Part shown: in pieces, positions 2,831 to 17,581 of the stretch
Numbering within the stretch: the stretch's first letter is position 1
How the letters are laid out: each line of letters begins with the position of its first letter
NCBI GenBank assembly: GCA_002456995.1
Contig: NTKC01000006.1
Coordinates: 1-64,000, forward strand
DNA length: 64,000 bases
Source of the DNA: Candidatus Thioglobus sp. MED-G25
Lineage (GTDB): Bacteria > Pseudomonadota > Gammaproteobacteria > Arenicellales > UBA868
Direction of reading: 5' to 3'
Position numbers and translations under genes: made by a program
Notes under the pieces: model-generated
Database searches by the model: none
What the model saw: the letters and a program-made list of their open reading frames with translations, nothing else
What the model was told of the DNA's origin: nothing

Positions 2831-3055
2831 GTTTCCTCACTTACAAGAATTAGGTAAACGTATAAGATTTCAATCCCTTTCTAACCTCTTCAGTACATCC
2901 CTAACGCGCCCAGGTCACTAATAAATTCAGGATTGAGACAATAGTTGATAGATCAAGGTCCTAGTTGAATTACTCTAGGGAACTTCAAAGAAGCATAACA
3001 TGGGCACATGTTAGTCTGGTGATCGATCCATGGCATTACCTATCCAAATACACAC

Positions 3056-3826
3056 CTACCAGGGAATTCTCGAGCCGTCGTACGCATAGAAACCGCCTGA
3101 TTCCTCAGGCGATAGACTATCAATGACGTCAAGAAGACGTTTTGCAGAGGTATCGGCTGACAGTAACGACTGCGCGGGAACACTTCTTTGGAACGGACGA
3201 GACAAATCCGTATCCACGGTGCCAGGATGCAAACCAACACACACCAATTTCTTGTTCCGCCTCCCAAGCTCGATCGCAATATTTCGGGTAAACATATTCT
3301 GAGCAGCCTTACTGGCTCGATAACCGTACCACCCCCCTAATTTATTATCACTCAAACTTCCAACTCTGGCAGAAAGATTTGCTATAACCACACGCTGTTG
3401 ATTTGGAATCAGCTGCTTCAAGGCTTTCATCAGCACTACAGGCCCGATCGAATTAACGTCAAAAGACCTGCGCAAGCCGTCGAGAGTAACATCTTCAAGC
3501 CTTTTCTCCGGTTGAAGCTCACGGTCGTGAAGCAACCCAGCACAGTTGACAACAAGGTTTGGCTGAGCGCCATCAAATTCAAGCCTGTTCGCTAAGTCTT
3601 CGATGGACTCGCTGCTAGTTACATCAACCGCTATCGGTACAACCCGGGCTCCATAGGTTTTCACTGCATCGTCAAGATCGCGAGCGGATCCAAGATTTCG
3701 ACATCCTGCATAAACCGTATCAACCATCGGGCTCATGAGCAGTTGTTGCACAAAAGCCAGTCCAATCCCGCGATTTGATCCGATTACGACAGCAACAATC
3801 GGATCTTCGAAACTTTTCATAGCCAA
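3056..3826 (-). CDS. Short-chain dehydrogenase/reductase, C-factor (CsgA)-like
   Basis: A 256-residue SDR with the NAD(P)-binding glycine motif near the N-terminus (VIGSNRGIGLA), an NCAG motif in the middle and the catalytic YxxxK as YGYRASKAA. Classical SDR length. It is a cytosolic NAD(P)H oxidoreductase of unknown substrate. It is transcribed divergently from the DUF1295 gene at 4051 across 224 bases that probably hold both promoters. SDRs of this type accompany the COG2907/DUF1365/Cfa genes in RpoE-ChrR type photo-oxidative stress gene sets, which fits the genes 3 kb downstream. The role in that set is inference. Confidence 0.85.
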   Translation of the reverse strand: MAMKSFEDPIVAVVIGSNRGIGLAFVQQLLMSPMVDTVYAGCRNLGSARDLDDAVKTYGARVVPIAVDVTSSESIEDLANRLEFDGAQPNLVVNCAGLLHDRELQPEKRLEDVTLDGLRRSFDVNSIGPVVLMKALKQLIPNQQRVVIANLSARVGSLSDNKLGGWYGYRASKAAQNMFTRNIAIELGRRNKKLVCVGLHPGTVDTDLSRPFQRSVPAQSLLSADTSAKRLLDVIDSLSPEESGGFYAYDGSRIPW

Positions 3827-4050
3827 CTCTCACGAAAATTATTTCGATCGAGTCTAGCTACCCTATGTGAAGGGCCCGTCTACAGGTTCGCTTCGATTCT
3901 CGAATCTAAAAGTCAAACCCAACCGTCAGCAAGGTCATAAAAACGTATTCATCACTTTTTGTTCACATGACTGCATATAGTGCAATTTAGATTACTTAAT
4001 TAACGAATTGATCTGTATACGACCTATCTTGGTGACCAAACTATCCGACT

Positions 4051-4821
4051 ATGCCCGATGTTTTTCCAATGCTCACTGCCATTCCATACCTGGTCGGCCT
4101 CGCACTGATAGCGTGGTTCATTAGCCTAAAAACCATGAACGCTGCTGTCGTAGACGCGTTTTGGCCACTGTTTCTTTCCACTGCGACACTGATTTACGTG
4201 CTTGAGGCACCCCAAATAACGCCCGCAGCCTGGCTTGTCCTAGCGCTCGTAGGTCTATGGGCTACCCGGCTATTCGTACACGTCACTACCCGATCATGGG
4301 GCGAAACGGAAGACCAACGGTATGCCGAAATTAGGGCCAGATGGGGGAGCAAATTTGCCCTCAAAAGCTTGCTTGGCATATTCGGCTTGCAGGCAGCCCT
4401 CGCATGGTTGATTTCCTCCAGTTTATTTGTAGCCATAAGCCCCACTCCAAATTTAACCCCGGCACATCTCGCCGCAGCTAGCATTTGGCTGTTCGGATTG
4501 ATATTTGAAACCGTTGCGGACATTCAGTTGCGAAAATTTAAAACTTCAAATACCCCCGATGCTGTTCTGGATACTGGCCTTTGGAGATATTGCCGACACC
4601 CCAACTATTTTGGAGAATGCTGCGTTTGGTGGAGCGCCTACCTTCTAGCACTACCGTCTGGGGGATGGTGGACGTTGCTATCCCCTCTACTCATGACTTA
4701 TTGCCTTCTTCACTTCAGCGGTATCCGGCGTATGGAATCAGGTATAACGCAGCGTAGGCCAGACTATGCACGATACATCAGACGGACCAGCGCATTTTTA
4801 CCGCTCCCGCCGCGTGCCTGA
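4051..4821 (+). CDS. DUF1295 family membrane protein (steroid 5-alpha-reductase-like fold)
   Basis: A 256-residue integral membrane protein with about six hydrophobic segments. The C-terminal half carries the signature RYCRHPNYFGE and a closing RRxSxFxPLPP, as in DUF1295 and isoprenylcysteine methyltransferase-like proteins. Members are thought to reduce or methylate hydrophobic substrates in the membrane; the reaction here is unknown. The ATG at 4051 leaves 72 bases between its stop and the response-regulator start. DUF1295 genes recur in photo-oxidative stress gene sets, consistent with the surrounding cluster. Confidence 0.85.
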   Translation: MPDVFPMLTAIPYLVGLALIAWFISLKTMNAAVVDAFWPLFLSTATLIYVLEAPQITPAAWLVLALVGLWATRLFVHVTTRSWGETEDQRYAEIRARWGSKFALKSLLGIFGLQAALAWLISSSLFVAISPTPNLTPAHLAAASIWLFGLIFETVADIQLRKFKTSNTPDAVLDTGLWRYCRHPNYFGECCVWWSAYLLALPSGGWWTLLSPLLMTYCLLHFSGIRRMESGITQRRPDYARYIRRTSAFLPLPPRA

Positions 4822-4862
4822 TTTCCTCTTCACAAAAAAGTCACGCAGCAATCACATAATCG

Positions 4863-4880
4863 CGTCTCCAAATAGAGACG
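4863..4880. promoter_or_regulatory. Inverted repeat upstream of the response regulator
   Basis: CGTCTC, six spacer bases, GAGACG: a perfect 6-base inverted repeat ending 13 bases before the response-regulator ATG at 4894. It could be an operator for autoregulation or a small 5' leader hairpin. A shorter related pattern, GTCTC-N5-GAGAC, lies at 9926-9940 just ahead of the first Cfa-like gene. Sequence only; the function is a guess. Confidence 0.3.
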
Positions 4881-4893
4881 GCAAAGACCTGTA

Positions 4894-5604
4894 ATGATCA
4901 CTGATAACCCAGCTAAACGCACAATACTTTTAGTGGAAGACCACCAAGATATAGCAGAGATGATTTTTGCCTATCTGGAAAAGCGTGGATTCGAACTAGA
5001 TTACGCTCCCGATGGTGAAGTAGGGCTAAACCTTGCTCGAGAAAACGAATACGACGCGATCATTCTCGATCTCATGTTGCCACGCCGTGACGGGCTAAGC
5101 GTATGCAAGTCCCTTCGTGAAGAAGGTCACAGTGACACGCCGGTTCTAATGCTTACAGCACGAGACACCCTGGAAGACAAAATATCTGGGTTTAATAGCG
5201 GTGCCGACGACTATCTTGTCAAACCTTTCGAGATTGAAGAACTGGAAGCGAGAATTAGAGCGCTAGTAAGGCGTCAATTTAGCAAACAACCCAGCGAAGT
5301 TCTCACGGTAGGTGACCTTACCTACGATCTAAATAAGCTTATGGTGGTTCGCAATGGTCAGCAACTCCAGCTCTCCCCAATCAGTCTTAAGTTATTGAAG
5401 ATCCTTATGGAAGCATCCCCTAACGTTGTTACTCGACGCGAAATCGAACAATTTATCTGGGGCGATGTATTGCCTGATAGCGATACATTGCGCAGCCATA
5501 TGTACAACCTGAGAAAATCTATAGATCGACCATTTTCTGAATCCCTGCTTCATACATTGCCAAGCAACGGGTATCGCCTCCACGCCAAGGATGAAAACAC
5601 TTAA
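4894..5604 (+). CDS. OmpR/PhoB-family DNA-binding response regulator
   Basis: A 236-residue protein with an N-terminal receiver domain (about 9-122): acidic pair Glu15-Asp16, phospho-acceptor Asp59 in the ILDLMLP stretch, and Lys110 in YLVKPF. A C-terminal winged-helix domain (about 135-232) ends in the usual LRSHMYNLRK...NGYRL pattern. It is a transcription factor phosphorylated by the kinase encoded next; the two frames overlap by 14 bases, implying translational coupling. It sits immediately upstream of the desaturase/Cfa run and is the only regulator visible in this cluster, so control of those lipid genes is a reasonable but unproven inference. Confidence 0.95.
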   Translation: MITDNPAKRTILLVEDHQDIAEMIFAYLEKRGFELDYAPDGEVGLNLARENEYDAIILDLMLPRRDGLSVCKSLREEGHSDTPVLMLTARDTLEDKISGFNSGADDYLVKPFEIEELEARIRALVRRQFSKQPSEVLTVGDLTYDLNKLMVVRNGQQLQLSPISLKLLKILMEASPNVVTRREIEQFIWGDVLPDSDTLRSHMYNLRKSIDRPFSESLLHTLPSNGYRLHAKDENT

Positions 5605-6928
5605 ACCTGGCATAGCGCACCGGTTTGGGCGAGCAGTCGCCCTCCAACTAGCCCTTGTAGCTGTTGCTGCTGTTTTAGGCACCTGGGGTGCTGGTTGGGT
5701 AATGAAAGAAATACTCGTCAAACAGGCATTGGAAACGGAAGCCGATTATTACTGGATGAGCAGAATTCAAAACCCCGACTTCGACCTCCCCGATACACGA
5801 AACTTAACCGGCTTTTTGTCCACAGAGAGCAACTCATTATCACTACCTGCTGGTCTACAGAATTTAGATCAGGGATTTCACGAACTACCTTCGCAATCAG
5901 ACTACTCCATAGCTTTCGTTTCGCAGAAGGACAATGAAAAATTGGTATTGCTTTTTGACGGGGAGCAGGTACACGAGCTCACACTGTACTTTGGGCTACT
6001 GCCACTTGGGGTAGTACTTGTTCTCGTCTACTGCTCGATTTATTTAGGATATCGATTTTACCGATCCGCAGTGTCTCCCGTTATTAGCTTGGCAAGGAAA
6101 GTCGAGTCGCTAGATCTTGAGAGTGTTGGCAACAATGAATTTCGACCCGAATCCCTCGACTTGAGTACAGACCGAGAGATCATCACTCTGGCTAAAGCAC
6201 TGGATAGGTTGACAAAGCGTGTTCGAGAATTCATCGCCAGAGAGAGAGACTTTACACGCGATGTCAGTCATGAATTACGCAGTCCATTGACGGTAATCAG
6301 TATCGCCTGCGATATGCTTTTGACAGAACAAGAACTCGCTCGGCCGGCAAAAAATTCTGTTCATCGTATTAAACGTGCCGCGGATGACATGAAGTCACTG
6401 GTCGAAGCTTTTCTGTTGCTGGCGCGAGAATCTGACGGCAGTTTGACAACGGAGCCAGTGAACGTGAACGATCTTCTGGCCGAAGAGGCTGAACGCTTTC
6501 GGCCACTGTTGGCGGGAAAGCCTGTTGAACTAAATATAAAAACCAACTGCCAGCTCGAAGTTAACGCGCCGTCAAAAGTTTTGTCGGTAATTATTTCAAA
6601 TTTTCTGGGCAATGCCGTGATGTATACCGATCAAGGAGCCATCGACCTCATTATCGACACCGATAGATTAGTTGTGCAAGACAGTGGAATTGGGATGGAG
6701 ATAGATGATAAAGGGCAAGCTTTCAAGCCTTACTTTCGGGGAAGCAATAGCCGCCGGGGTGGGCATGGTGTTGGACTTTCTATTGTCAAGAAACTCTCCA
6801 ACCGTTTCAGCTGGCAAGTTGATCTGACCAGCGAACCAGGAGTTGGTACGACCGCGACACTTCATATGCCACAGGCAAAATGCTTTCCATTAGAAACCCA
6901 GCTCACGTCTGCTTCCCTTAGCAGCTAA
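5591..6928 (+). CDS. Membrane sensor histidine kinase
   Basis: A 445-residue partner of the preceding regulator. TM1 is at about 17-38, a periplasmic sensor segment at about 40-128, TM2 at about 131-153, and a HAMP-like linker to about 215. The HisKA motif has His227 in DVSHELRSPL, the N box Asn337/Asn341, the G1 box DSGIGM (364-369) and the G2 box GHGVGLSIV (391-399); all catalytic elements are intact. The sensor segment, rich in acidic and aromatic residues, matches no sensor domain I recognise. The stop is only 15 bases from the desaturase start, so the two-component genes and the lipid genes may be one transcript. Confidence 0.95.
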   Translation: MKTLKPGIAHRFGRAVALQLALVAVAAVLGTWGAGWVMKEILVKQALETEADYYWMSRIQNPDFDLPDTRNLTGFLSTESNSLSLPAGLQNLDQGFHELPSQSDYSIAFVSQKDNEKLVLLFDGEQVHELTLYFGLLPLGVVLVLVYCSIYLGYRFYRSAVSPVISLARKVESLDLESVGNNEFRPESLDLSTDREIITLAKALDRLTKRVREFIARERDFTRDVSHELRSPLTVISIACDMLLTEQELARPAKNSVHRIKRAADDMKSLVEAFLLLARESDGSLTTEPVNVNDLLAEEAERFRPLLAGKPVELNIKTNCQLEVNAPSKVLSVIISNFLGNAVMYTDQGAIDLIIDTDRLVVQDSGIGMEIDDKGQAFKPYFRGSNSRRGGHGVGLSIVKKLSNRFSWQVDLTSEPGVGTTATLHMPQAKCFPLETQLTSASLSS

Positions 6929-6943
6929 CGAATACCATTCCAT

Positions 6944-7924
6944 TTGTTCGAGAGAGCTTTACCTGTGTTAGGCATTCTGACCAACAACTCGAAACTAGTC
7001 GCTCGGTTTAAGCGACCTCTATTTTGGTTGACTAATGACGACCGCCTCTATAATGCCAATAAGATTCAAAATAACAACGTCGATCCTCTTCGACTTATAC
7101 CTTTTCTCCTTATGCATGTGGGCTGTATTGGCATCCTATTTGTGGGTACGTCCACTACCGCTTTAATTCTCGCCGGTATTCTCTATGTGTTCCGAATGTT
7201 CTTTATCACTGCGTTTTATCATCGGTATTTTTCGCATCGTGCCTTTGAATGCTCGAGAAAATTTCAGGCTGTAATGGCTATTGTGGGCTGCACGGCTGGC
7301 CAGCGTGGTCCGCTTTGGTGGGCCAGCCACCACCGCTCGCATCACGTACATTCGGATACAAACAAAGATCCCCATTCTCCAAGCCAAACCGGATTTTTGT
7401 TCAGTCACTCGCTATGGTTTCTGACCCCTAAGGCGTATTTAACACCTGAGAATCACATAAAAGACTGGCTTGTTTTCCCAGAACTAAAATGGATTGATAA
7501 GACTGACTGGTTACCGTTCGTCGGTCTTGCAGGTATTTGCTATGGATTGGGCTCGCTACTGGATAAATTTGTTCCTGGGCTTGAGACCAGCGGTGCACAG
7601 TGCCTTGTCTGGGGATTCTTTGTTTCCACCACATGCTTGTATCACGCGACCTATGCGATCAATTCCTTAGGACACCTGTGGGGCACACGTCGCTTCGGAA
7701 CACGAGATAACAGTCGAAATAATTCAATACTTGCACTGATCACCCTCGGTGAGGGCTGGCATAACAACCATCACCGGTACCCGCGGTCTGCTAGACAGGG
7801 GTTTTACTGGTGGGAATTTGACATTACCTACCTTGGAATAATGCTGATGTCTGCGGTTGGGCTAATTTGGAACGTACAACAAGCCCCATTATCCTTGACC
7901 GCGAAAAAACAGGATTCAACTTGA
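6944..7924 (+). CDS. Membrane acyl-CoA / acyl-lipid fatty-acid desaturase
   Basis: A 326-residue di-iron desaturase of the delta-9 (stearoyl-CoA desaturase-like) class. The three histidine boxes are present: HRYFSH, HRSHH and HNNHH. Hydrophobic membrane helices lie before the first box and between the second and third. It inserts a double bond into saturated acyl chains using O2 and an electron donor. The start is a TTG at 6944; an internal start is possible, but the N-terminal residues look like those of family members. It is the first gene of a packed lipid-modification run, with 4-base TTGA overlaps to the next two genes. Confidence 0.92.
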   Translation: MFERALPVLGILTNNSKLVARFKRPLFWLTNDDRLYNANKIQNNNVDPLRLIPFLLMHVGCIGILFVGTSTTALILAGILYVFRMFFITAFYHRYFSHRAFECSRKFQAVMAIVGCTAGQRGPLWWASHHRSHHVHSDTNKDPHSPSQTGFLFSHSLWFLTPKAYLTPENHIKDWLVFPELKWIDKTDWLPFVGLAGICYGLGSLLDKFVPGLETSGAQCLVWGFFVSTTCLYHATYAINSLGHLWGTRRFGTRDNSRNNSILALITLGEGWHNNHHRYPRSARQGFYWWEFDITYLGIMLMSAVGLIWNVQQAPLSLTAKKQDST

Positions 7925-9174
7925 ACCTTGCCGTTGTTGGAGCAGGCATCTCGGGCCTGGTTACGGCTTACGTACTGGGCCAGCGTCACAATGTAACCGT
8001 GTTCGAATCAGCAGACTATGCCGGCGGCCATGCGAACACCGTCTCAGTGAGAGATCAAACCCGTCAACTGAATATCGACACAGGATTTATTGTATTTAAT
8101 GAAAGCAACTATCCGCTGCTGTGTCGTCTTTTTAGCGCCCTTAACGTTCAATCAACAAAGTCTGATATGAGCTTTAGTGTGGTGTGTGAAAAAAGTAAAC
8201 GGGAATATAACGGAGAAAATCTGAACTCGCTGTTCGCCCAACGCTCAAACATTTTTCGACCTGATTTCTGGCACATGTTGACCGACATACTCCGGTTCAA
8301 TCGTTCTGCTTCGCGATTCGGCACAAAGACATTGGCAGGGGATTTGACCGTTGCTCAGTATGTTTCACAACAAGGATACGGCTCTAGCTTTATAGACCAA
8401 TATCTCGTGCCTCTGGGATCTTCTCTTTGGTCATGCAGTTCCCAGCAATTTAGGTCATTCCCTATCCGCTTCGTGATCGAATTTTTAGAAAATCATGGCA
8501 TGCTGAAATTGGCCAACCGACCTACCTGGCTAACGGTGACCGGGGGTTCTCAACAATACGTGAAAAAGATTACTAACCTCCTTGGCAAAAACCTCTTCAC
8601 TACGACTGCAGCAAGGAAAATATATCGAAAACCGCGTAGCGTAGAGGTGGAACTTACGAATGGACACAGACAAACTTTTGATGAAGTCATTCTGGCCACT
8701 CATGCAGATACCAGCTTACAGCTCCTCGCAGGTCCCGATGATATAGAGCGGGAAACTCTTGAGTCTTTTCCGTATCAAGATAACCATGTCTGTCTCCATA
8801 CTGATACTAGAGTCCTTCCTAACCGTAAACCTGCCTGGGCCAGTTGGAACTATCGAATTCCTGCAAATGATTTAGACCCGGTCTCAGTAAGTTACAACAT
8901 GAACCGACTGCAGGCGCTCGACGTGACAACTACCTACTGTGTATCGCTTAATCAGATCAGAAACATAGCACCGGAAAAGATAATTCAGCGAATGACTTAC
9001 CGGCACCCTGTGTTTGGAGGATGTCGTGATGCAGCCCAAAGCAATCACCAACATCTGATAAGAAAAAATAGAATTTCGTATTGCGGTGCCTATTGGGGAC
9101 ATGGGTTTCATGAAGATGGCATCCGAAGCGGCCTCACCGTAGCCAAAGCATTTGATACGGAGCCACCATTTTGA
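7921..9174 (+). CDS. COG2907 FAD/NAD(P)-binding oxidoreductase (flavin amine-oxidase fold)
   Basis: I place the start at TTG 7921, overlapping the desaturase stop as TTGA and directly preceding the Rossmann motif VVGAGISGLVTAY; the frame is open further upstream, but inside the desaturase gene. Length 417 residues. Proteins of this group sit beside DUF1365 and Cfa-like genes in many proteobacteria and belong to the singlet-oxygen RpoE-ChrR gene set of Rhodobacter sphaeroides, where methylated and furan fatty acids are made on phospholipid chains. Here it probably oxidises or isomerises an acyl chain. The exact reaction is not known to me, so I give no gene symbol. Confidence 0.85.
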   Translation: MNLAVVGAGISGLVTAYVLGQRHNVTVFESADYAGGHANTVSVRDQTRQLNIDTGFIVFNESNYPLLCRLFSALNVQSTKSDMSFSVVCEKSKREYNGENLNSLFAQRSNIFRPDFWHMLTDILRFNRSASRFGTKTLAGDLTVAQYVSQQGYGSSFIDQYLVPLGSSLWSCSSQQFRSFPIRFVIEFLENHGMLKLANRPTWLTVTGGSQQYVKKITNLLGKNLFTTTAARKIYRKPRSVEVELTNGHRQTFDEVILATHADTSLQLLAGPDDIERETLESFPYQDNHVCLHTDTRVLPNRKPAWASWNYRIPANDLDPVSVSYNMNRLQALDVTTTYCVSLNQIRNIAPEKIIQRMTYRHPVFGGCRDAAQSNHQHLIRKNRISYCGAYWGHGFHEDGIRSGLTVAKAFDTEPPF

Positions 9175-9947
9175 ATAGCTACATTTACACCGGCACCCTC
9201 AAGCATAAACGGCTCGAACCGAAGGTTCATTCCTTCTTTTATAAGGTATTCATGGTGTATATCGTTCTGGAAGAGCTCCCAGACCTATTTGACAAGATTT
9301 GGTTTTGTTCAGCGCGACGTCCTGCAATCGCAAGGTTTCGTCGTGATGACCACTATAGAAGTGCGGCAGGAACACTGGATGAGGATATCCGTCAATTAGT
9401 CCATGATCGAGTCGGACTTTTCCCTCAAGGCCCGATCACCCTACTAACTCATCTGCGCTATTTCGGATTCGTCATGAACCCCGTTAGCTTTTACTACTGC
9501 TGGGACAAGTCTGTCAGCCGAATCGAACATATCGTTGCTGAGGTACATAACACCCCGTGGGGTGAACAACACTGCTATGTTCTGGAATGCCCACGTGATT
9601 GGAAGCTTGGTCGTGCCCAATTTTTTTTAGATAAAGAATTTCACGTGTCTCCATTTATGCCGATGGACCAAAAGTACGCATGGGAGTTCGGCTATCCAGG
9701 TGACTCTCTAAATGTCGAGATGAAGTCTTGGACCGACAACCAGCAGGTATTCCAGGCTTCTTTAGAGCTAGAAGCGATTGCATTAAATAGCTCAAACCTC
9801 GCAAGTTGCTTACTTTCCTATCCATTAATGACAACAAAGGTAGCCGCTGCTATTTACATGCAAGCTGCATGTCTATGGCTAAAAAAGGTGCCGTTTTATC
9901 CATATCCGATTCATAACAAGAAACAGTCTCATCTAGAGACAGAGTAA
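9171..9947 (+). CDS. DUF1365 family protein
   Basis: A 258-residue protein with a TTG start overlapping the upstream stop (TTGA). It opens with IYTGTLKHKRL.P..HSFFYKVFM and contains HLRYFGFVMNPVSFYYC and VHNTPWGE, the hallmark conserved blocks of DUF1365. The family has no established biochemical activity but almost always neighbours a COG2907 oxidoreductase and a Cfa-like methyltransferase, as here, implying a common step in acyl-chain modification. Five bases separate its stop from the next ATG. Confidence 0.9.
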   Translation: MNSYIYTGTLKHKRLEPKVHSFFYKVFMVYIVLEELPDLFDKIWFCSARRPAIARFRRDDHYRSAAGTLDEDIRQLVHDRVGLFPQGPITLLTHLRYFGFVMNPVSFYYCWDKSVSRIEHIVAEVHNTPWGEQHCYVLECPRDWKLGRAQFFLDKEFHVSPFMPMDQKYAWEFGYPGDSLNVEMKSWTDNQQVFQASLELEAIALNSSNLASCLLSYPLMTTKVAAAIYMQAACLWLKKVPFYPYPIHNKKQSHLETE

Positions 9948-9952
9948 AACTG

Positions 9953-11239
9953 ATGAACACCAGTATCCCGGAGCTACATAACTTTCATAAGCACGATATG
10001 TCTAGGCCCAACCCAATAGATACTGTCTGCAGAACACTAGTCCACCGTAAGCTTAAACATCTAAACGGTGCACTGCGCATCATGGACAGTTGGGGCGACG
10101 AAATCGTTGGAGATAGGAATGGTCTATATGGGGCAATCAGAATCAGCGATCCAACGCTTTACAGACGATTAGTCACATCCGGTAGTCTTGGTGCTGCCGA
10201 GGGCTGGATGGATCAGCAATGGGAAACAGATAACCTAACTGATCTGGTTCGACTATTCGTCCACAATATCGCGCTTTCCGACACGCTCGACAACGGGTTA
10301 TCGGGCATTGCTGCATTCATTGCAACCCTGAGACATCGTAAAAAAGCCAATAACCGGGTAGGGAGTCGAAACAATATCAGAGCGCACTACGATCTTGGGA
10401 ACGATCTATTTTCGTTGTTTTTAGATTCTACGATGACCTATTCATCAGCAATATTTGACTCAGATCATAACTCTTTAGAAAGCGCTAGTATCAATAAGTT
10501 AGATAGAATTTGCCGAAAGCTCAACCTAGAAAAAGATGACCATTTGCTCGAGATCGGATGTGGCTGGGGCAGCTTGGCTATTCATGCCGCTGAACACTAC
10601 GACGCCCGCGTAACTGCCGTCACGATTTCTCAATCCCAACTCGATTTCGCTAAGTCAAGGGCCGAACGCCAAGGCATCGGCAATCGAATTGATTTTCAAT
10701 TACGGGACTACCGAGACATTAAAGGGCAATTCAAAAAAATAGCTTCGATTGAAATGATCGAAGCTGTTGGACACCAATACCTACCCGAATTCTTTGAGCG
10801 CTGTGGGCAATTGCTCGATGACGACGGATGCATGGTGATCCAAGCCATCACAATGCCCGACCAGAGATATGAGAAGTATCGGAAAAACTGCGATTTCATT
10901 CAGAAATATATTTTCCCCGGGAGTTGTGTACCGTCTCTCGACGCAATGCTTTCCCAGGTAAAAGTCAGATCGAAGATGAAACTTATTCATCTGGAAGACA
11001 TAGGCGCTCAATACGCTGAAACACTTCATCATTGGCACGCTAGATTTTCTAAATCTGAGAAAGAGGCAAAAACGCTGGGCTACTCGGACAGATTCATTCG
11101 CCTTTGGCATTACTACCTTAGTTATTGCGAAGCCGGATTCCGGGAGCACTACCTTTCGGATCTGCAAATGGTATTTGCTAACCCTGGCTGGCACAACGAC
11201 TTTACTGTCGAGTACCCGTCAGTACCGTGCAAGCGATGA
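9953..11239 (+). CDS. Cyclopropane-fatty-acyl-phospholipid synthase-like SAM methyltransferase 1
   Basis: A 428-residue member of the Cfa/COG2230 family. It has the HYDLGNDLF block (145-153), the SAM-binding LLEIGCGWGSLAI (198-210) and the downstream SIEMIEAVG. At the position of E. coli Cfa Cys139 (YSC motif) it has Ser165 (YSSAIF). The family transfers the SAM methyl group to cis double bonds of phospholipid acyl chains. Relatives act as methylases in furan-fatty-acid synthesis (UfaM) rather than as cyclopropane synthases. Which product is made here is inference. Its stop overlaps the next ATG as ATGA. Confidence 0.9.
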   Translation: MNTSIPELHNFHKHDMSRPNPIDTVCRTLVHRKLKHLNGALRIMDSWGDEIVGDRNGLYGAIRISDPTLYRRLVTSGSLGAAEGWMDQQWETDNLTDLVRLFVHNIALSDTLDNGLSGIAAFIATLRHRKKANNRVGSRNNIRAHYDLGNDLFSLFLDSTMTYSSAIFDSDHNSLESASINKLDRICRKLNLEKDDHLLEIGCGWGSLAIHAAEHYDARVTAVTISQSQLDFAKSRAERQGIGNRIDFQLRDYRDIKGQFKKIASIEMIEAVGHQYLPEFFERCGQLLDDDGCMVIQAITMPDQRYEKYRKNCDFIQKYIFPGSCVPSLDAMLSQVKVRSKMKLIHLEDIGAQYAETLHHWHARFSKSEKEAKTLGYSDRFIRLWHYYLSYCEAGFREHYLSDLQMVFANPGWHNDFTVEYPSVPCKR

Positions 11240-11778
11240 GAAGCAAATTCGTAAATTTTGTTTTTTTCAATCTAGCCTGGCTCGGTGTCGTTGCCAGCGC
11301 AGCCCATGGCTGGAGTTTTGTCGCGCCGTTCATCGTTCTCGGTTGGATCATCCCTTTTCTAATCTGGCAAGGAAACCTTAAGTCAGAAATAGGGCTACTA
11401 ACTGCAGCGGCAGCTTTAGGGTTTTTTTGTGACTCAATTCTCTTCTGGACCGGAGCTATCGAATTGCGTGGAAGCACCCAGGTCCCTTCTCTCTCGCCTG
11501 TTTGGATGATAGCCCTTTGGGTTAATTTAGCTGCAAGCCTGCGCTACTGCCTACATTGGCTGCTAGGGCGATACTGGCTAGCTGCAGTCTTTGGGGGCAT
11601 CGCAGGTCCGTTAGCCTACACGGCTGGACAAGGACTTGATGCTTTGCAGCTACCAATAGGGCCAGCACCTGTCGCGATCGAATGGGTACTGGCCATGCCT
11701 TTGCTACTACAAATCGAAAGATGGACTCGAAAGCGTGTGGCGAAGAATCATTCACACACTGTTGACGTTGCGTCTTGA
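11236..11778 (+). CDS. DUF2878 family small membrane protein
   Basis: About 180 residues from ATG 11236, which overlaps the upstream stop (ATGA); a GTG nine bases earlier is possible. It is almost entirely hydrophobic, with five or six membrane segments, including a Trp-rich first helix and a GPLAYTAGQ loop. It matches the DUF2878 pattern of inner-membrane proteins found beside Cfa/COG2907 genes. The function is unknown; it could anchor or assist enzymes acting on membrane lipids. Confidence 0.8.
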   Translation: MRSKFVNFVFFNLAWLGVVASAAHGWSFVAPFIVLGWIIPFLIWQGNLKSEIGLLTAAAALGFFCDSILFWTGAIELRGSTQVPSLSPVWMIALWVNLAASLRYCLHWLLGRYWLAAVFGGIAGPLAYTAGQGLDALQLPIGPAPVAIEWVLAMPLLLQIERWTRKRVAKNHSHTVDVAS

Positions 11779-11788
11779 AAATATAGCC

Positions 11789-12844
11789 ATGAGCTCAGTT
11801 TTAAGCACTTGCCTTGCTGCGGCCGATAGAGGGTGGTTACCCGACACCATTATACGTTCGGGTATCCGACATCTCTGCGAAGAACGCCTCAAAACGTTAA
11901 ATCCTCTCCAATCATTATCAAACCAACACTATTTAAAAGAATTCATAACAGCAATGGATGGTGCGGAAATCGCACCATTACCAGATAAAGCCAACAGTCA
12001 GCACTATGAACTGCCACCCGAGTTTTTTGAGCTGGTTCTAGGAGACTATAAAAAATACAGCTGTTGTTACTGGAATCCAGGTGACAAATCCCTAGTTGAT
12101 GCGGAACGTAGTGCGCTTCAGATCACTTGCGACCGCGCACAGATTGAGGACGGCCAGCACATCCTTGAGCTCGGTTGCGGCTGGGGCGCGCTGAGCCTGT
12201 GGATGGCAACCAATTTTCCTAATACTCGAATTACTGCGTTGTCAAACTCTGCTGCTCAGCGTCACTACATCGAATCTCAAGCACGCTCAGCTGGATTAAA
12301 TAACCTAGAAGTTAAAACATGCGACATAAATAATTATACCTCCGTGTGCAAATATGATCGGATCGTGTCCATTGAGATGTTCGAGCATCTTAGAAACTAC
12401 CGAATGATGTTTGATCGTATAGCAAGCTGGCTAACCCCTGGTGGCAAATTATTTATCCACATCTTTGCTCACGCTGAGACGCCCTACACATTTTGTGACG
12501 AAGGGCCCTCCGATTGGATGAGTAGACACTTCTTCACCGGTGGCATGATGCCGAGTCACGCTCTCCCATTATCCTTCGAGAAAGATCTAGTTGCTGAAAA
12601 ACACTGGCGCTGGAATGGCCACCACTACCACCGGACTGCAGAATCATGGTTAGTCAACCTGGATCACAATCGTTCCAACGCTTTAACAATCCTGAAGCGT
12701 GTTTACGGCAAACAACACTCAACAGTGTGGTTTCAACGTTGGCGCATATTTTTCATGGCGTGTGCAGAACTTTTCGCGATGAAGGATGGTGAGGCCTGGG
12801 GTGTCAGCCACTATCGATTTATCAGAAACGACAATGCAAATTGA
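11789..12844 (+). CDS. Cfa-like SAM-dependent methyltransferase 2
   Basis: A 351-residue protein from ATG 11789. An earlier GTG at 11735 would place 18 residues inside the previous gene and is less likely. SAM motif ILELGCGWGALSL lies at 125-137. The YSCCYW block keeps the Cys (Cys92) that aligns with the E. coli Cfa active-site Cys, unlike the first paralogue. It also has SIEMFEHLRNY and HIFAH segments typical of the COG2230 subgroup that includes phospholipid and small-amine methylases. It lacks most of the N-terminal Cfa domain. Two Cfa-like enzymes in one run suggest successive methylations or different substrates. Confidence 0.87.
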   Translation: MSSVLSTCLAAADRGWLPDTIIRSGIRHLCEERLKTLNPLQSLSNQHYLKEFITAMDGAEIAPLPDKANSQHYELPPEFFELVLGDYKKYSCCYWNPGDKSLVDAERSALQITCDRAQIEDGQHILELGCGWGALSLWMATNFPNTRITALSNSAAQRHYIESQARSAGLNNLEVKTCDINNYTSVCKYDRIVSIEMFEHLRNYRMMFDRIASWLTPGGKLFIHIFAHAETPYTFCDEGPSDWMSRHFFTGGMMPSHALPLSFEKDLVAEKHWRWNGHHYHRTAESWLVNLDHNRSNALTILKRVYGKQHSTVWFQRWRIFFMACAELFAMKDGEAWGVSHYRFIRNDNAN

Positions 12845-12853
12845 CTTCTCTTG

Positions 12854-13420
12854 ATGACTTCAGTCCATATATTTCGTTCCCGTAAATGGTTAATTGCCTT
12901 TGCTCTGGCCCTACCCCTCTATCTGCTAATGACCCACTCAGCCTTATCAAACAAACCTATGCCGACCGTCAATTTTGTTGATCTCAACAAATTCATGGGG
13001 ACATGGTACGTGATTGCCTGCATTCCAACATTGATCGAGCGTGACAGTTACAACGCAGTAGAACACTATCAGCTCAAAGATGACGGCACTATTTCGACTA
13101 CCTTTACCTATTTGAAAGGGGGATTCAACGGACCACTTAAATCTTATAAACCTCGTGGATTTATCTTGGATAACGAAACAAACGCCAGATGGGGCATGCA
13201 ATTTATCTGGCCGATCAAGGCCGACTACAGAATCGTATCTCTAGACGAGCAATATACCCAAACAATTGTGGCGAGACAAAAACGTGACTACGTCTGGTTG
13301 ATGGCGCGAACCCCGAATATCTCTGATCAGGACTACCGACAACACATCCATACAATCAAGTCGCTGGGCTATGACATAACCAAACTTAGAAAAGTGCCAC
13401 AACAATGGCTCTCCAATTAA
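12854..13420 (+). CDS. Lipocalin (Blc-like), exported
   Basis: About 188 residues from ATG 12854 (a TTG three bases earlier is possible). Residues about 12-32 form a signal peptide ending near ALSNKP; there is no lipobox cysteine, so it is probably soluble in the periplasm rather than a lipoprotein. The lipocalin signature GTWYVIA and a late VWLMARTP strand are present, with the usual beta-barrel length. Bacterial lipocalins bind fatty acids or lysophospholipids. As the last gene of the lipid run it may carry damaged or modified acyl chains. About 100 bases follow before folE2. Confidence 0.9.
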   Translation: MTSVHIFRSRKWLIAFALALPLYLLMTHSALSNKPMPTVNFVDLNKFMGTWYVIACIPTLIERDSYNAVEHYQLKDDGTISTTFTYLKGGFNGPLKSYKPRGFILDNETNARWGMQFIWPIKADYRIVSLDEQYTQTIVARQKRDYVWLMARTPNISDQDYRQHIHTIKSLGYDITKLRKVPQQWLSN

Positions 13421-13521
13421 TAGAGACTTAAATGTTTTAGCCAAGTGACATCTTCACTTAACACTCACGCCATGATTTCTATAGTGTCGTTCTAACTACA
13501 ACCAAAATACTTAAATACTCA

Positions 13522-14328
13522 ATGGCTAGTCTTGAAAACACAGCTGCAGCAGTAGCATCCATCTCCGACGTACAATCTTCTAGAGACATTCGAAATCTGG
13601 CTATAGATATGGTGGGTATTAAAGGTGCCCGACATCCGATTGTAGTCGCCGACGAAGACATCAAGGAACAATCAACAATTGCCGAGTTCGATATGTATGT
13701 TGATTTACCACCGGATGTCAAAGGCACACACATGTCACGATTTATTGAAATTCTAAACAGCCAGGACAGTGCTCTTTCTCTCAATTCCTTTAAATCTCTC
13801 TTGGAACAAATGACCGCAAAGTTAGGCGCAACCACTGGTGTGATACGAGTAAGTTTTCCGTTTTTCGCCCGTAAAAACGCTCCAGTATCAGGAGCTCAAA
13901 GCTTGATGGACTACCAGGTGACGTTTAACGGTCGCCTTGCTCCAGCCTCGACATCGGTAGAACTTGAAATTGTAATACCGGTAACAAGTTTATGTCCGTG
14001 CTCAAAAGAAATATCTGACTACGGTGCTCACAATCAACGCTCGCATGTCACTCTCAAGGTTGAGGCTACGAACTCAGTTACTATCACACAAATGATTCAG
14101 GTGGTTGAGCAGGAGGCGAGTTGCGAATTATTTGGCACACTAAAAAGGCCCGATGAAAAATATGTGACTGAAAGGGCCTATGAGAACCCAAAATTTGTTG
14201 AAGACCTTGTTCGCGACATTGCCGTCAGGCTTAATGATGATCATGGTATTCGTAGATTTAGCGTGGCTGCTGAGAATTTTGAATCCATTCACAATCATTC
14301 TGCGTATGCAGTAATAACCAAAAATTAA
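13522..14328 (+). CDS. folE2: GTP cyclohydrolase FolE2 (GCYH-IB)
   Basis: A 268-residue enzyme converting GTP to 7,8-dihydroneopterin triphosphate, the first step of folate synthesis. It has the FolE2 signature TSLCPCSKEIS with the catalytic Cys, GAHNQRSHV, and the conserved Glu region QVVEQEASCELFG. FolE2 is the alternative, metal-flexible form, often induced under metal limitation or stress. In this setting it may supply tetrahydrofolate for the photolyase antenna (methenyl-THF), an inference from proximity. An 842-base stretch without a recognised gene follows. Confidence 0.93.
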   Translation: MASLENTAAAVASISDVQSSRDIRNLAIDMVGIKGARHPIVVADEDIKEQSTIAEFDMYVDLPPDVKGTHMSRFIEILNSQDSALSLNSFKSLLEQMTAKLGATTGVIRVSFPFFARKNAPVSGAQSLMDYQVTFNGRLAPASTSVELEIVIPVTSLCPCSKEISDYGAHNQRSHVTLKVEATNSVTITQMIQVVEQEASCELFGTLKRPDEKYVTERAYENPKFVEDLVRDIAVRLNDDHGIRRFSVAAENFESIHNHSAYAVITKN

Positions 14329-14659
14329 TCGGTTCAACTATAAAGCCAGCTGAACTCCCAACCAACCTTCATACATGGTCAGTTTTAAAAAAAACCGAAA
14401 CTGGACCGTGCCGAACTTTACATTCGCATTAACGATGACTAAATAGTAGCAACCACACTCGAACACAAACCTCTCTCGTGATTTACATACGGCATTTGCC
14501 GACCTCAGTGGTCGACGCTATATCTTCCCCATTAAAAAGTATTTCTAGTAAGTCGATCAAAACTATTCTGTCGTATCTTAACTAGGATACAGGCGAATTT
14601 GTTTACTTTACGAGCGCTCTTACCAATAGTTATCTAGAAAAGCATTGACAACTTATTCA

Positions 14660-14732
14660 CACGAACCTCTTTAAGCTTGTCTTTCCTCCTTAGTGGTCAT
14701 TTGGCCCCACTCTAGGAGTGGGGCAACTTTTT
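14660..14732 (+). ncRNA. Candidate small RNA ending at the intrinsic terminator
   Basis: A TTGACA hexamer at 14645-14650 is followed, 40-60 bases downstream, by CTTTCCTCCTT (about 14682-14692), an anti-Shine-Dalgarno-like tract, and then the terminator. A transcript of roughly 60 bases would be CCUCC plus hairpin, a plan seen in stress-induced alphaproteobacterial CcsR-type RNAs. The -10 element is weak, so the 5' end is a guess and the whole entry is low confidence. Confidence 0.25.
14704..14732 (+). terminator. Strong Rho-independent terminator
   Basis: GCCCCACTC, loop TAG, GAGTGGGGC: a perfect 9-base-pair stem at 14704-14724, followed by AACTTTTTATTT. It lies 376 bases beyond the folE2 stop, rather far to be only the folE2 terminator, so it may end an independent short transcript. 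The T run is on the plus strand, which sets the direction. Confidence 0.85.
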
Positions 14733-14861
14733 ATTTAAGTCACATTGTGATCAATTAATTATCCATCCACTTAATTTTGTTGGCATAACTTTCATCCTCC
14801 ACCGAGGTTTAGCTCACATCTGATTGTTCATAATCAAGCTCACTTACTAATCAACAAGCCA

Positions 14862-14981
14862 ATGGGATCACTCACGGAACTATTTATAATTAGCCTTACC
14901 GCAATCAGCGCAACTTCATTCTTGTTAACAACAATGACCGCACTACACACAAACCTAACAAAGATTAAAATCAACTTGTGA
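14862..14981 (+). CDS. Possible 39-residue hydrophobic peptide
   Basis: An ATG-to-TGA frame of 39 codons with a central hydrophobic, Thr/Ser-rich helix (about residues 7-26) and a basic tail, as in small single-pass membrane peptides. It ends 13 bases before the hairpin at 14995. There is no clear ribosome-binding site (AACAAGCCA upstream), so it may be chance. Confidence 0.22.
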   Translation: MGSLTELFIISLTAISATSFLLTTMTALHTNLTKIKINL

Positions 14982-14994
14982 GCACCTAGCACCC

Positions 14995-15027
14995 ATGAAT
15001 GCCGACCATTGTTGGATCGGCATTCAT
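14995..15027 (+). terminator. Long hairpin, possible terminator or RNA element
   Basis: ATGAATGCCGA pairs perfectly with TCGGCATTCAT (11 base pairs), and the interior CCA-TTGT-TGG extends the stem with one bulged A. It is followed by TTGCAGTATTTGG, a poor T run, so termination would be inefficient. It could equally be a stable end of a small RNA. It lies about 145 bases ahead of the photolyase start. Confidence 0.5.
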
Positions 15028-15170
15028 TTGCAGTATTTGGCTCACTCACCAAAATCCGACAAAGATCATTTTGTTAAAGTCTATTTATTCTCTACTTCGA
15101 TACGTCAAATCATAGAAGACGTCTTTATGTTTAATATTGAAATCTGGATAGCTTCGCCGATAGTGACTAA

Positions 15171-16595
15171 ATGAGAGGACTACACTGGTTCAGAAACGAC
15201 CTACGGCTGGAAGACAATCGGGCGCTAGCTGATTTATTTCGAGTTGTGGATGAATGGTGTGGGCTTTTCGTCCTGGAACCTAGGCTGGTAGACATACCAT
15301 CAGTTTCGTTGAAACGACTTAGCTTCCTGTTCGAGTGCCTGGACGATCTGTCTAATAATTTGGACCAAGTTGGAAACAGGCTGGTAGTCGTTGACGGCCC
15401 TGCCGAGACACAGATACCCCAACTTATGCATAAACTGTCCATATCCGTACTTTCTTTTAATGAAGGCACAACACCGTTTGCAAAGTCCAGGGATCAATCA
15501 GTGATCGCTTCCGTGGAAAAAGCAGGGCATAGAGTGCTCAAACGGCGAGATCATGTCATCTTTTCCGCTGCCGACATTCGATCTTCAAAAGGGTCGGCCT
15601 ATTCTGTGTATACGCCTTATCGGAACGCCTGGTGGAAAAAGTACTCCCTGAGCGATCATAGTGATACCACGCCATCGAAACGGCCGGGCCCAATAACAAG
15701 TCTTGGACCCGTTGACACCCCAAAAATATTGATTCACCTAAAAAATAATTTGGAGAGACCTGCCTTTAAGGGCGGACACCAGGCTGCACAAGATCGTCTC
15801 AATCAATTCCTTAACAAGCCTGTCTCGCTCTATCATCAGAATCGAGATCGACCAGACCTTGACGGTACATCACGCTTATCAATGCACCTGCGGTTTGGAA
15901 CAATCTCGATACGTGAATGTTTTAAACAAGCTATGGAAGCGGCCCATACAGATCCGTGTTATAAATCCGGCGTACAGCAATGGCTAGACGAGCTCATCTG
16001 GCGCGAGTTCTATAACGCTATTCTTGAAGAAAATCCTAGAGTACTTCAGGGTAATTATCGTCAGGAATATAATTATCTTAACTGGCAGAACAATCCGGAC
16101 CATTTTTCCGCATGGTGTGAGGGGCGCACAGGGTTTCCAATTGTTGATGCAGGAATTCGACAACTTCTTAGCACCGGCTGGATGCACAACCGGATCAGAA
16201 TGATCGTCGCGAGCTTCCTCACAAAAGATTTGCTAACTGACTGGAAACTCGGTGAACGTTTCTTCTTCGAGCATCTTGTCGATGGCGACCCGGCCAGCAA
16301 CAACGGAGGCTGGCAATGGGCTGCCTCGACTGGAACGGATGCTCAGCCCTATTTCCGAATCTTTAATCCCTGGAAACAGTCTGAACGTTGGGATCCAAAA
16401 GGTGACTATATTCGCCGCTGGGTTGCTGAACTTAGAGATGCTCCTGTTTCGCACCTGCATTCTCCTACATCTGCAGCACAACTGGCGTCAGACTATCCGA
16501 CGCCTATTGTTGATCACGCGAACCGGCGTACCGCAGCACTTATGGAGTATCGTAGAGCTAGAGAACAAAACTCGGAGGCACAACAAGGTGTCTGA
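15171..16595 (+). CDS. phr: Deoxyribodipyrimidine photolyase (class I, FAD/antenna type)
   Basis: A 474-residue photolyase that repairs cyclobutane pyrimidine dimers using light. The N-terminal alpha/beta antenna domain starts LHWFRNDLRLEDN. The C-terminal FAD domain contains MHLRFG, LIWREFYNAI, TGWMHNRIRM, NNGGWQWAASTGTD and FNPWKQSERWDP, all in family order, with the DNA/FAD-contacting Trp and Asn residues intact. The length is typical. The ATG at 15171 lacks a strong Shine-Dalgarno sequence. It overlaps the next gene by 8 bases and lies downstream of folE2, fitting a photodamage-response set. Confidence 0.95.
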   Translation: MRGLHWFRNDLRLEDNRALADLFRVVDEWCGLFVLEPRLVDIPSVSLKRLSFLFECLDDLSNNLDQVGNRLVVVDGPAETQIPQLMHKLSISVLSFNEGTTPFAKSRDQSVIASVEKAGHRVLKRRDHVIFSAADIRSSKGSAYSVYTPYRNAWWKKYSLSDHSDTTPSKRPGPITSLGPVDTPKILIHLKNNLERPAFKGGHQAAQDRLNQFLNKPVSLYHQNRDRPDLDGTSRLSMHLRFGTISIRECFKQAMEAAHTDPCYKSGVQQWLDELIWREFYNAILEENPRVLQGNYRQEYNYLNWQNNPDHFSAWCEGRTGFPIVDAGIRQLLSTGWMHNRIRMIVASFLTKDLLTDWKLGERFFFEHLVDGDPASNNGGWQWAASTGTDAQPYFRIFNPWKQSERWDPKGDYIRRWVAELRDAPVSHLHSPTSAAQLASDYPTPIVDHANRRTAALMEYRRAREQNSEAQQGV

Positions 16596-17553
16596 ATCAT
16601 CACCGACAGTTACGCTCCGGGTCGGAGTGTCATCATGTCTGCTGGGACAGAAAGTTCGATATGACCGCGGTCATAAGCGAGATCGGTTTCTGAGTGATGA
16701 GCTCGGCCCATTTGTGGACTGGGTTCCGGTTTGTCCTGAAGTCGAGTCCGGACTTGGCCTACCACGACCTACCATGCACCTTGCCAAAAATGGTGATTCT
16801 GTAGTACTGATCGAAACAAAATCAGGACTGGACCATACCCGGACAATGAAAGCATTTGCCCGTCGACGCGTGCGTGAACTCCGTGAACTTAATTTATCCG
16901 GCTATGTGCTGAAGAAAGATTCTCCCAGTTGCGGGATGACGCGTGTCAAGGTGCGTAATGAGAAAGGAATGCCCGATCGCAATGGGGTCGGGGTTTTTGC
17001 AGCAATCCTCCTGCAGGCTCTGCCGAATCTACCTATCGAAGAAGAGGGTAGGCTTCACGATGCCCGTCTACGGGAAAATTTTATAGAACGTATTTTTGCT
17101 TTCCAGCGCCTAAATATGCTCTTTACCGGGCACTGGACACGCCAGCAGGTTGTGGCGTTTCATACCGCGCATAAGCTGCAGCTAATGGCACACTCGACAA
17201 AAATTTACCGTGACCTCGGACAACGAGTGGCTGCAGTAAAAGATCTGCCACGAACTGAGTTTCGTGATGGCTACATCGGGGATTTTATGACCGCACTGTC
17301 AAAGGTCGTGTCACCCGGACGTAATACTAATGTGTTGCAGCATTGCGCCGGCTATTTCAAAAAACAACTCACATTCGGGGAGCGAGCCGAACTCACAGAT
17401 CTGATCCATGACTATCGTAAGGGCCTGGTCCCGCTGGTTGTACCCTTAACGCTGATACGGCACTTCGCGCGACTTTATGACATTGATTACCTAAAAGGAC
17501 AGTACTTCCTGGACCCTCACCCGCGAGAACTGATGCTGCGTAACCACGTCTAA
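16588..17553 (+). CDS. DUF523-DUF1722 fusion protein (YbgA-like)
   Basis: A 321-residue protein from GTG 16588 with GGAGGC 9-14 bases upstream; the frame is open earlier, but only inside the photolyase. The N-terminal DUF523 (about 1-150) has VSSCLLGQKVRYDRGHKRD and KDSPSCGMTRV, conserved cysteines suggestive of metal or cluster binding. The C-terminal DUF1722 (about 170-320) has LNMLFTGHW and AHKLQLMAHS. E. coli ybgA, adjacent to phrB, encodes a DUF1722 protein, and such fusions often sit next to photolyases, so a role in DNA repair or photolyase function is inferred. The biochemical activity is unknown to me. Confidence 0.9.
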   Translation: MSESSPTVTLRVGVSSCLLGQKVRYDRGHKRDRFLSDELGPFVDWVPVCPEVESGLGLPRPTMHLAKNGDSVVLIETKSGLDHTRTMKAFARRRVRELRELNLSGYVLKKDSPSCGMTRVKVRNEKGMPDRNGVGVFAAILLQALPNLPIEEEGRLHDARLRENFIERIFAFQRLNMLFTGHWTRQQVVAFHTAHKLQLMAHSTKIYRDLGQRVAAVKDLPRTEFRDGYIGDFMTALSKVVSPGRNTNVLQHCAGYFKKQLTFGERAELTDLIHDYRKGLVPLVVPLTLIRHFARLYDIDYLKGQYFLDPHPRELMLRNHV

Positions 17554-17581
17554 ATCAGTCGCACTAGAAATACGGCGGTGG

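Follow-up and report, generated by a model that had tools for sequence, protein, structure and literature searches.

Gene content of the locus and the predicted furan pathway

We analysed a 64,000-nt window of contig NTKC01000006.1 from Candidatus Thioglobus sp. MED-G25 (assembly GCA_002456995.1, genome 86% complete), and in it a predicted furan-fatty-acid operon headed by the genes of a two-component system. The first two genes, on the forward strand like all genes of the operon, encode an OmpR-type response regulator (RR, 4894..5604, PF00072 and PF00486) and a membrane sensor histidine kinase (HK, 5591..6928, PF00512 and PF02518). They are followed by genes for an SCD1-like di-iron acyl desaturase of the FA_desaturase family (6944..7924, PF00487), a UfaD-like flavin oxidoreductase of the COG2907 type (7921..9174, PF01593), a UfaO-like DUF1365 protein (9171..9947, PF07103, E 4.9e-76) and a UfaM-like S-adenosylmethionine (SAM) fatty-acyl methylase of the cyclopropane fatty acid (CFA) synthase family CMAS (9953..11239, PF02353, E 9.1e-84; PDB 6bqc, E 4.6e-53). 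A DUF2878 membrane protein (11227..11778, PF11086), a second CMAS-family SAM methylase (11789..12844, PF02353) and a Blc-type lipocalin (12851..13420, PF08212; PRK10477 at 78.7 bits, under the cut-off of 267) complete the run. All nine genes had been given named families in the first-pass annotation and all were recovered on one strand with Pfam, and the coordinates agree with its 14-base overlap of RR and HK and the 15-base gap to the desaturase gene. It had also described mostly 4-base overlaps or short gaps; the junctions are indeed short, the largest gap from RR to lipocalin being 15 bases, but 4-base overlaps are found at only two of the eight (the others are -14, +15, +5, -13, +10 and +6). 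The oxidoreductase gene probably starts at TTG 7921, overlapping the desaturase stop by 4 bases, and the start of the second Cfa-like gene was corrected to ATG 11789. With gaps of at most 15 bases, the spacing suggests co-transcription from RR to lipocalin.

The cluster extends past the nine named genes. Upstream lies the gene for a steroid-reductase-like DUF1295 membrane protein (4051..4821, PF06966, E 2e-61), which is 72 bases 5' of RR in the window and is kept upstream of RR in the loci of the host's family (33 genomes, hereafter the own family). Downstream are genes for a FolE2 GTP cyclohydrolase (13522..14328, PF02649, E 8.6e-93), a DNA photolyase (15171..16595, PF03441 and PF00875) and the tRNA s4U desulfidase RudS (TudS-DUF1722; about 16603..17553, start uncertain, with PF04463 and PF08349 on open reading frame (ORF) 16252-17553), all on the forward strand. 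A short-chain dehydrogenase (SDR) gene on the reverse strand (3056..3826, PF00106) is divergent from the operon, and a homologue with 45-46% identity lies at the corresponding position of loci L037 and L038, with DUF1295 on one side and photolyase on the other. The top forward promoter-like match, sigma-70-like with a -35-like TTAACA at 13458, precedes folE2, and the strongest of the region's forward terminator-like hairpins (14704-14724) lies 3' of it; weaker forward terminator-like matches fall within genes at 5657, 5997, 6998, 9216 and 11300. The folE2/photolyase intergenic stretch (14330-15170, 840 bases, 39% GC) holds this hairpin and an apparent second one near 15000, and gave no Rfam match at gathering scores.

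In the pathway characterised in Rhodobacter, cis-vaccenate on phospholipids is first methylated by UfaM; UfaD then introduces a double bond, and the DUF1365 protein UfaO uses O2 to form the furan ring. The resulting furan fatty acids scavenge singlet oxygen (PMC7380195). The corresponding genes of Rhodopseudomonas palustris are RPA2569 (ufaM), RPA2570 (ufaO) and RPA2571 (ufaD) (PMC7380195). RSP1091 (UfaD) is listed with a flavin-containing amine oxidase, RSP2144 (UfaM) with a CFA synthase and RSP1090 with a hypothetical protein, and phrB belongs to the same core regulon (PMC5507510). The RpoE-ChrR context named in the first-pass annotation therefore fits, UfaD, UfaO and UfaM being ChrR-regulon genes (PMC7380195, PMC5507510). 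In the window the CMAS methylase, the flavin amine-oxidase-type UfaD and the DUF1365 UfaO adjoin in the order UfaD-UfaO-UfaM, as in RPA2571-2569. Judged from family and order, and compared to the characterised proteins by description, the operon is predicted to make furan fatty acids.

The desaturase aligned with PDB 4ymk (E 2.4e-30), including the three His boxes that mark membrane di-iron desaturases. Of the 33 own-family genomes 31 encode FabA, the host's among them; double bonds thus have a further source, and the idea that the desaturase alone supplies unsaturated chains was rejected. The second methylase is nearer coclaurine N-methyltransferase (6gkv, E 2.2e-64) than CFA synthase (6bqc, E 1.9e-28); that it is an analogue of FufM adding a second methyl to the furan is only a guess. 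Its kinship with an N-methyltransferase would also suit an operon that yields other modified lipids (10-methyl or cyclopropane chains, or an N-methylated headgroup) and no furans. CMAS-family enzymes yield many products, and DUF1295 and DUF2878 are families of unknown function. Yet DUF1365 (UfaO) and the flavin enzyme (UfaD) adjoin UfaM in the order of the characterised furan pathway, and we consider a product other than furans unlikely.

Linkage of the kinase and the lipid cluster across genomes

We searched for the kinase and the lipid cluster in the own family, in an order set of 109 genomes and in an evenly drawn class sample of 369 genomes. With thresholds of E at most 1e-60 for HK and at most 1e-40 for UfaD, the order scan found HK in 54, UfaD in 55 and both in 45 of the 109 genomes (Fisher 4e-12, kinship not corrected), and in 30 of these 45 the two lie within 10 kb. 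Within the own family HK was present in 16 and UfaD in 15 of the 33 genomes; 15 have both, in every case within 1.7 kb, and the sole genome with HK and no UfaD (G102) has a contig that ends in the HK gene. HK and UfaD come and go together, since 11 of the 20 genomes of genus g5 carry both and 8 neither; one has HK only, on a contig ending in the HK gene. The class sample gave HK in 27, UfaD in 114 and both in 23 genomes (Fisher 1.9e-9, kinship not corrected), with the two within 10 kb in 15 of the 23 as counted by eye; these are lower bounds, because at most four candidates were scored per genome. The pairing is conserved, both in the own family and in the order, and is more than chance. A scan of named genomes with the kinase profile was saturated by generic kinases; 11 of its 80 loci (L089-L099) look like close orthologues by gene map, and 6 of the 11 have Ufa genes in the stretch.

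The arrangement of the pair varies. In the own family RR and HK precede the desaturase gene, and the remaining gene set is present as far as the contigs reach, several of them stopping inside the cluster; locus L051 has no desaturase and no DUF2878 match. The kinase lies behind Cfa2 in L056, L237 and L240, is divergent beside SDR-UfaD in L233, L234 and L238, and adjoins photolyase in L041, L049 and L050, where the lipid cluster sits on a separate contig. A tree of 73 RR-HK pairs held one group, without a support value, in which 25 pairs are lipid-linked, 3 photolyase-linked and 1 unlinked, and a 12-pair group (support 1.0) with 11 linked, while 16 unlinked pairs formed one clade (support 1.0); the remaining deep supports were 0.6-0.9. 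A microbial rhodopsin was seen in 5 of the 33 own-family genomes, all five with the cassette kinase, and none in the host genome.

A putative operator and the sensor kinase

Upstream of RR in own-family loci lies a direct repeat, TTCAC-N6-(A/T)TCAC, with an 11-bp period. In the window this putative RR operator spans 4829..4855 on the forward strand, 39-65 bases before the RR start codon, with half-sites TTCAC, GTCAC and ATCAC in 11-bp steps. Two further candidates on the same strand are ATCACTTTTTGTTCAC (3951..3966), a direct repeat of the same period upstream of DUF1295, and TTCACTTAACACTCAC (13453..13468) before folE2, which overlaps the sigma-70-like -35 element. A matrix was built from 12 own-family sites, and own-family RR scores are hence not independent of it; it gave p 0.015 for the site before folE2 and missed that at 3951-3966 (p 0.43). 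Four of the six matches to the repeat in the window lie at the three sites before DUF1295, RR and folE2.

The spacing of the repeat is specific. TCAC-N7-TCAC was found upstream of RR in 12 of 14 own-family regions (0.07 expected) and in 22 of 38 other regions, any other spacing from 1 to 20 occurring in at most 2 of the RR upstream regions. Of 37 lipid-operon promoters in other families that have the pair, 13 carry it (0-3 for other spacings, none for the reversed word), against one of 29 with no pair near; that one (L253) has an unlinked RR-HK homologue in its genome. Three of six promoters still have the repeat when the lipid operon lies on a separate contig from the pair, and among class-sample unlinked RR-HK homologues one of six RR upstream regions has it. 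Among 26 RR upstream regions from other families, 17 scored at p at most 0.01 with the matrix. For lipid-cluster gene starts, p 0.01 was reached by only 5 of 70 where other families carry the pair, by 0 of 24 where it is missing and by 0 of 36 within the own family. The shuffles for the matrix, spacing and ColR-site tests keep base content only.

The same repeat also occurs 66 bases before the gene of a Crp/FNR-type regulator adjoining RR-HK (L067:6207), and similar matches without an assigned gene lie in L099 (7292) and L181 (18080). Strong matrix matches lie about 1.6 kb past the lipocalin gene at L043:2772, L044:770, L045:1014 and L054:11102, the last of them 284 bases before a DsbC-like gene.

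The repeat resembles the sites of ColR, of which seven have been footprinted in Pseudomonas putida, two direct repeats of which one is less conserved (PMC2689224). Four of the seven published sites hold TCAC-N7-TCAC and six were recognised by the own-family matrix at p at most 0.02; in four of the seven the best matrix match is one repeat step (11 bp) off the aligned consensus core, and the T-tract of that core is not conserved in own-family sites. The pair shares with ColRS and RaxRH an OmpR-type RR, a kinase with two transmembrane (TM) helices and a periplasmic loop of about 90 residues here against 96 in ColS, and a TTCAC direct repeat of 11-bp period, with a site about 60 bases before a start codon (PP0903). 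It differs from them in having no ExxE motif by TM2 and in its neighbours, which are furan-lipid and photolyase genes and not lipid A genes. RR itself stayed under the cut-off in the best 25 of 95 NCBIfam rows, and we judge it ColR-like from its operator; in silico, it is predicted to bind the TTCAC repeats. Dyella/Luteibacter-type loci (L100-L112 in part) have an RR mostly 61-64% identical, a diverged kinase sensor part and no lipid cluster, and TCAC-N7-TCAC upstream in 10 of 14 examined.

The periplasmic loop of HK, about 90 residues between the two TM helices, may be a small domain of predicted Cache-like fold. The sensor part of the window member matched no Pfam family, and other members gave weak matches, the best of them shared in 8 of 42. 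The fold search with the whole kinase returned kinase cores or kinase models as its best 50 matches, which do not inform on the sensor part, and the absence of a fold family from the search with the HK sensor model carries no evidential weight.

The likeness of the operator to the ColR box also fits a different account: a pair that senses metals or general envelope stress, as ColRS does in Pseudomonas, with the furan lipids as one among several changes to the membrane and no particular part for light. ColRS has roles in membrane functions and reacts to zinc and iron (PMC4074579), and the kinase here has no chromophore domain in the Pfam search and, in the window, a sensor part matching no Pfam family. 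However, the ExxE motif just before TM2, which ColS needs for metals, is present in 0 of 42 sequences, genes for photolyase, FolE2 and RudS accompany the cluster, and the own-family genomes with rhodopsin all have the pair (p 0.018). We hold a metal or envelope-stress role to be possible, although somewhat doubtful.

The cassette is accessory or acquired, as read from its lower GC content (46.7% against 51.7% downstream) and its absence from all three same-genus genomes. In 2-kb steps, GC is 43-48% over 2000-16000 and about 50-54% beyond 16 kb. These properties would also be expected if the cassette moved as a unit and the pair controlled something else, the neighbourhood reflecting co-transfer only. 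Such an explanation is improbable in view of the repeat, which precedes lipid operons even with the pair on another contig and in rearranged orders, and of the linkage, which persists in many families with differing gene order. Elsewhere in the window an MttB-family methyltransferase ORF (33041-34609, reverse strand) matches Rfam PYLIS_3 at 33445-33544 with 66.9 bits; it has no internal stop and is therefore likely a non-pyrrolysine homologue.

Regulators at the lipid cluster and the probable role of the kinase pair

RpoE-ChrR controls such genes in Rhodobacter sphaeroides, and an RpoE-homologue promoter motif precedes the phrB-cfa locus of P. syringae (PMC5507510). P. putida and P. mendocina have the B12-dependent LitR, and their phrB, ufaM and folE are light-induced (PMC9758184); in Vibrio cholerae ChrR/sigma-E and MerR act under blue light (PMC5241685), and RudS genes are frequent in light operons (PMC11417400). 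Given these published RpoE-ChrR, LitR and MerR controls, photolyase, RudS and GTP cyclohydrolase are the usual company of the lipid genes and the kinase is not. The locus has the furan enzyme families and the photolyase partner of the R. sphaeroides RpoE-ChrR regulon (ufaM, ufaD, ufaO, phrB), with HK and an OmpR-type RR at the operon head where no extracytoplasmic function (ECF) sigma/ChrR pair was found, and with desaturase, second methylase, DUF1295, DUF2878 and lipocalin added. Photolyase, SDR, flavin adenine dinucleotide oxidoreductase, ufaM and GTP cyclohydrolase are shared with the class II LitR regulons of Pseudomonas (PMC9758184), and RudS with the PhrB-LitR-RudS operon (PMC11417400), whereas here a membrane kinase stands instead of LitR, no homologue of which was found in the genome, and FolE2 replaces FolE.

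No full ChrR was found in the 86% complete host genome. The best candidate, a 142-aa cupin-only protein (33.9 bits against the TIGR02451 cut-off of 124.5), was rejected as ChrR: it adjoins amidohydrolase-like and transporter-like frames, and no sigma-factor frame was recognised there. An RpoE of the ChrR-linked type was not found in a search without positive control, nor was a class II LitR (MerR plus B12-binding) at E 1e-20. The RpoE-ChrR promoter, searched as TGATC-N16-20-CGTA (known form TGATC-N18-CGTAT), had one match in the window, at 54583, against 2.36 expected, and none before the operon. These results, together with the conserved pairing, bear out the earlier proposal in so far as a kinase stands where ECF sigma/anti-sigma control was not found. 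An rpoE-chrR pair with its promoter before the operon had been named as evidence that would speak against it; the pair was not found in the genome as assembled, nor the promoter before the operon. The same proposal had overlooked LitR-type control, the photolyase, folE2 and rudS neighbours, the DUF1295 gene and the ColR-like repeat, and it is partly supported overall. Its view of the desaturase as special to the kinase version did not hold: homologues also occur in the RpoE-ChrR-linked loci L253 and L254 and in the LitR-linked L174.

Other genomes carry other regulators at the same cluster. A full ChrR over the curated cut-off was present in two of the 109 order genomes, both with UfaD and neither with this HK; in G021 a sigma-factor gene accompanies it at the cluster (L169), and the ChrR gene of G026 is on a contig apart from the cluster. 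Class-sample loci with RpoE-ChrR adjoining the cluster are L253, L254, L255 and L260, with ChrR over the cut-off in all four. The genomes of L253-L255 and of L182 also hold an HK match elsewhere, unlinked in L253-L255. LitR was found in seven of the 109 order genomes, all with UfaD. LitR-type genes lie beside the cluster in L170, L174 and L182 and in the class-sample loci L262, L265 and L269, the last three with MerR and B12 domains; L268, a MerR protein at 27% match without a B12-domain match, was not counted. Of the HK-less clusters fetched (L259-L271), 8 of 13 show none of the three regulators.

Several observations weigh against an exchange of regulators in which the kinase pair is the switch. 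In the order, UfaD is missing from 9 of the 54 genomes with HK, and HK from 10 of the 55 with UfaD; five of these ten, all of one genus, have no recognised regulator in the stretch fetched. RR-HK relatives without lipid genes exist (Dyella-type, class sample), so the pair can have other targets. L091 and L244 have both LitR and an RR-HK pair flanking one lipid cluster, and five of the seven LitR genomes of the order also have HK; replacement is therefore not the only arrangement, and double control by LitR and the kinase pair is possible in L091 and L244. It is also possible that a chrR was missed, because the genome is 86% complete. The repeat is absent from 24 of the 37 lipid-operon promoters with the pair present, its exact form before DUF1295 was not seen in other own-family loci, and its six matches in the window against 2.33 expected are a mild enrichment, so that the argument for the operator depends on its conserved position and spacing. 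The search for sigma-70-like promoters gave none before RR or DUF1295 (10 matches against 20 expected). Terminator-like hairpins over 3800-17700 number 21 against 11.6 expected from shuffles, and because of this excess an internal terminator is possible by sequence.

Even so, the conserved kinase linkage, the regulator swap at the cluster and the ColR-like repeat point to a furan-fatty-acid operon switched on by its own ColR-type two-component system, standing where others have RpoE-ChrR or LitR, and we give this a probability of about 0.7. The ColR-type pair likely takes the place of RpoE-ChrR or LitR as the switch of a photoprotective membrane-lipid operon. By its genes this would be a known kind of photoprotective lipid operon, with a regulator class that the literature searched does not describe for such operons. 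Among the open-licence papers listed, we found no report of two-component control of furan-fatty-acid genes, these genes being tied there to RpoE-ChrR or LitR light switches. The one paper listed that has both furan fatty acids and a two-component system, PMC5442454, joins deletions of ntrYX and chrR for lipid secretion, and the passages considered report no control of ufa genes by a kinase.

In the mechanism we propose, HK would sense an envelope signal through its small Cache-like periplasmic domain, a predicted fold. Phosphorylated RR would bind the TTCAC-N6-TTCAC repeats located in silico before its own gene, DUF1295 and folE2, and so raise RR and the whole downstream operon. On phospholipid acyl chains, UfaM would methylate a monoene, UfaD would add a double bond and UfaO would close the furan ring with O2, with the desaturase supplying extra monoene substrate. 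The second methylase may add a second methyl or modify another lipid, and the lipocalin may handle oxidised lipid. The furan lipid would quench singlet oxygen, while FolE2, photolyase and RudS would serve DNA and tRNA after light. More tentatively, such pairs could form a third class of bacterial photo-oxidative control, not described before, in which a Cache-like, ColR-type sensor of photo-oxidised lipid products drives furan genes, folE2 and repair genes across Gammaproteobacteria, interchangeably with RpoE-ChrR and LitR.

If the kinase pair is the switch, its periplasm-facing sensor would mean that many Gammaproteobacteria, some of them with rhodopsins, judge photo-damage from outside the cytoplasm, and the ligand of the sensor would become a direct, testable question. 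The 11-bp operator would read out the regulon in uncultured genomes and may help to place ColR-like systems of unassigned role.

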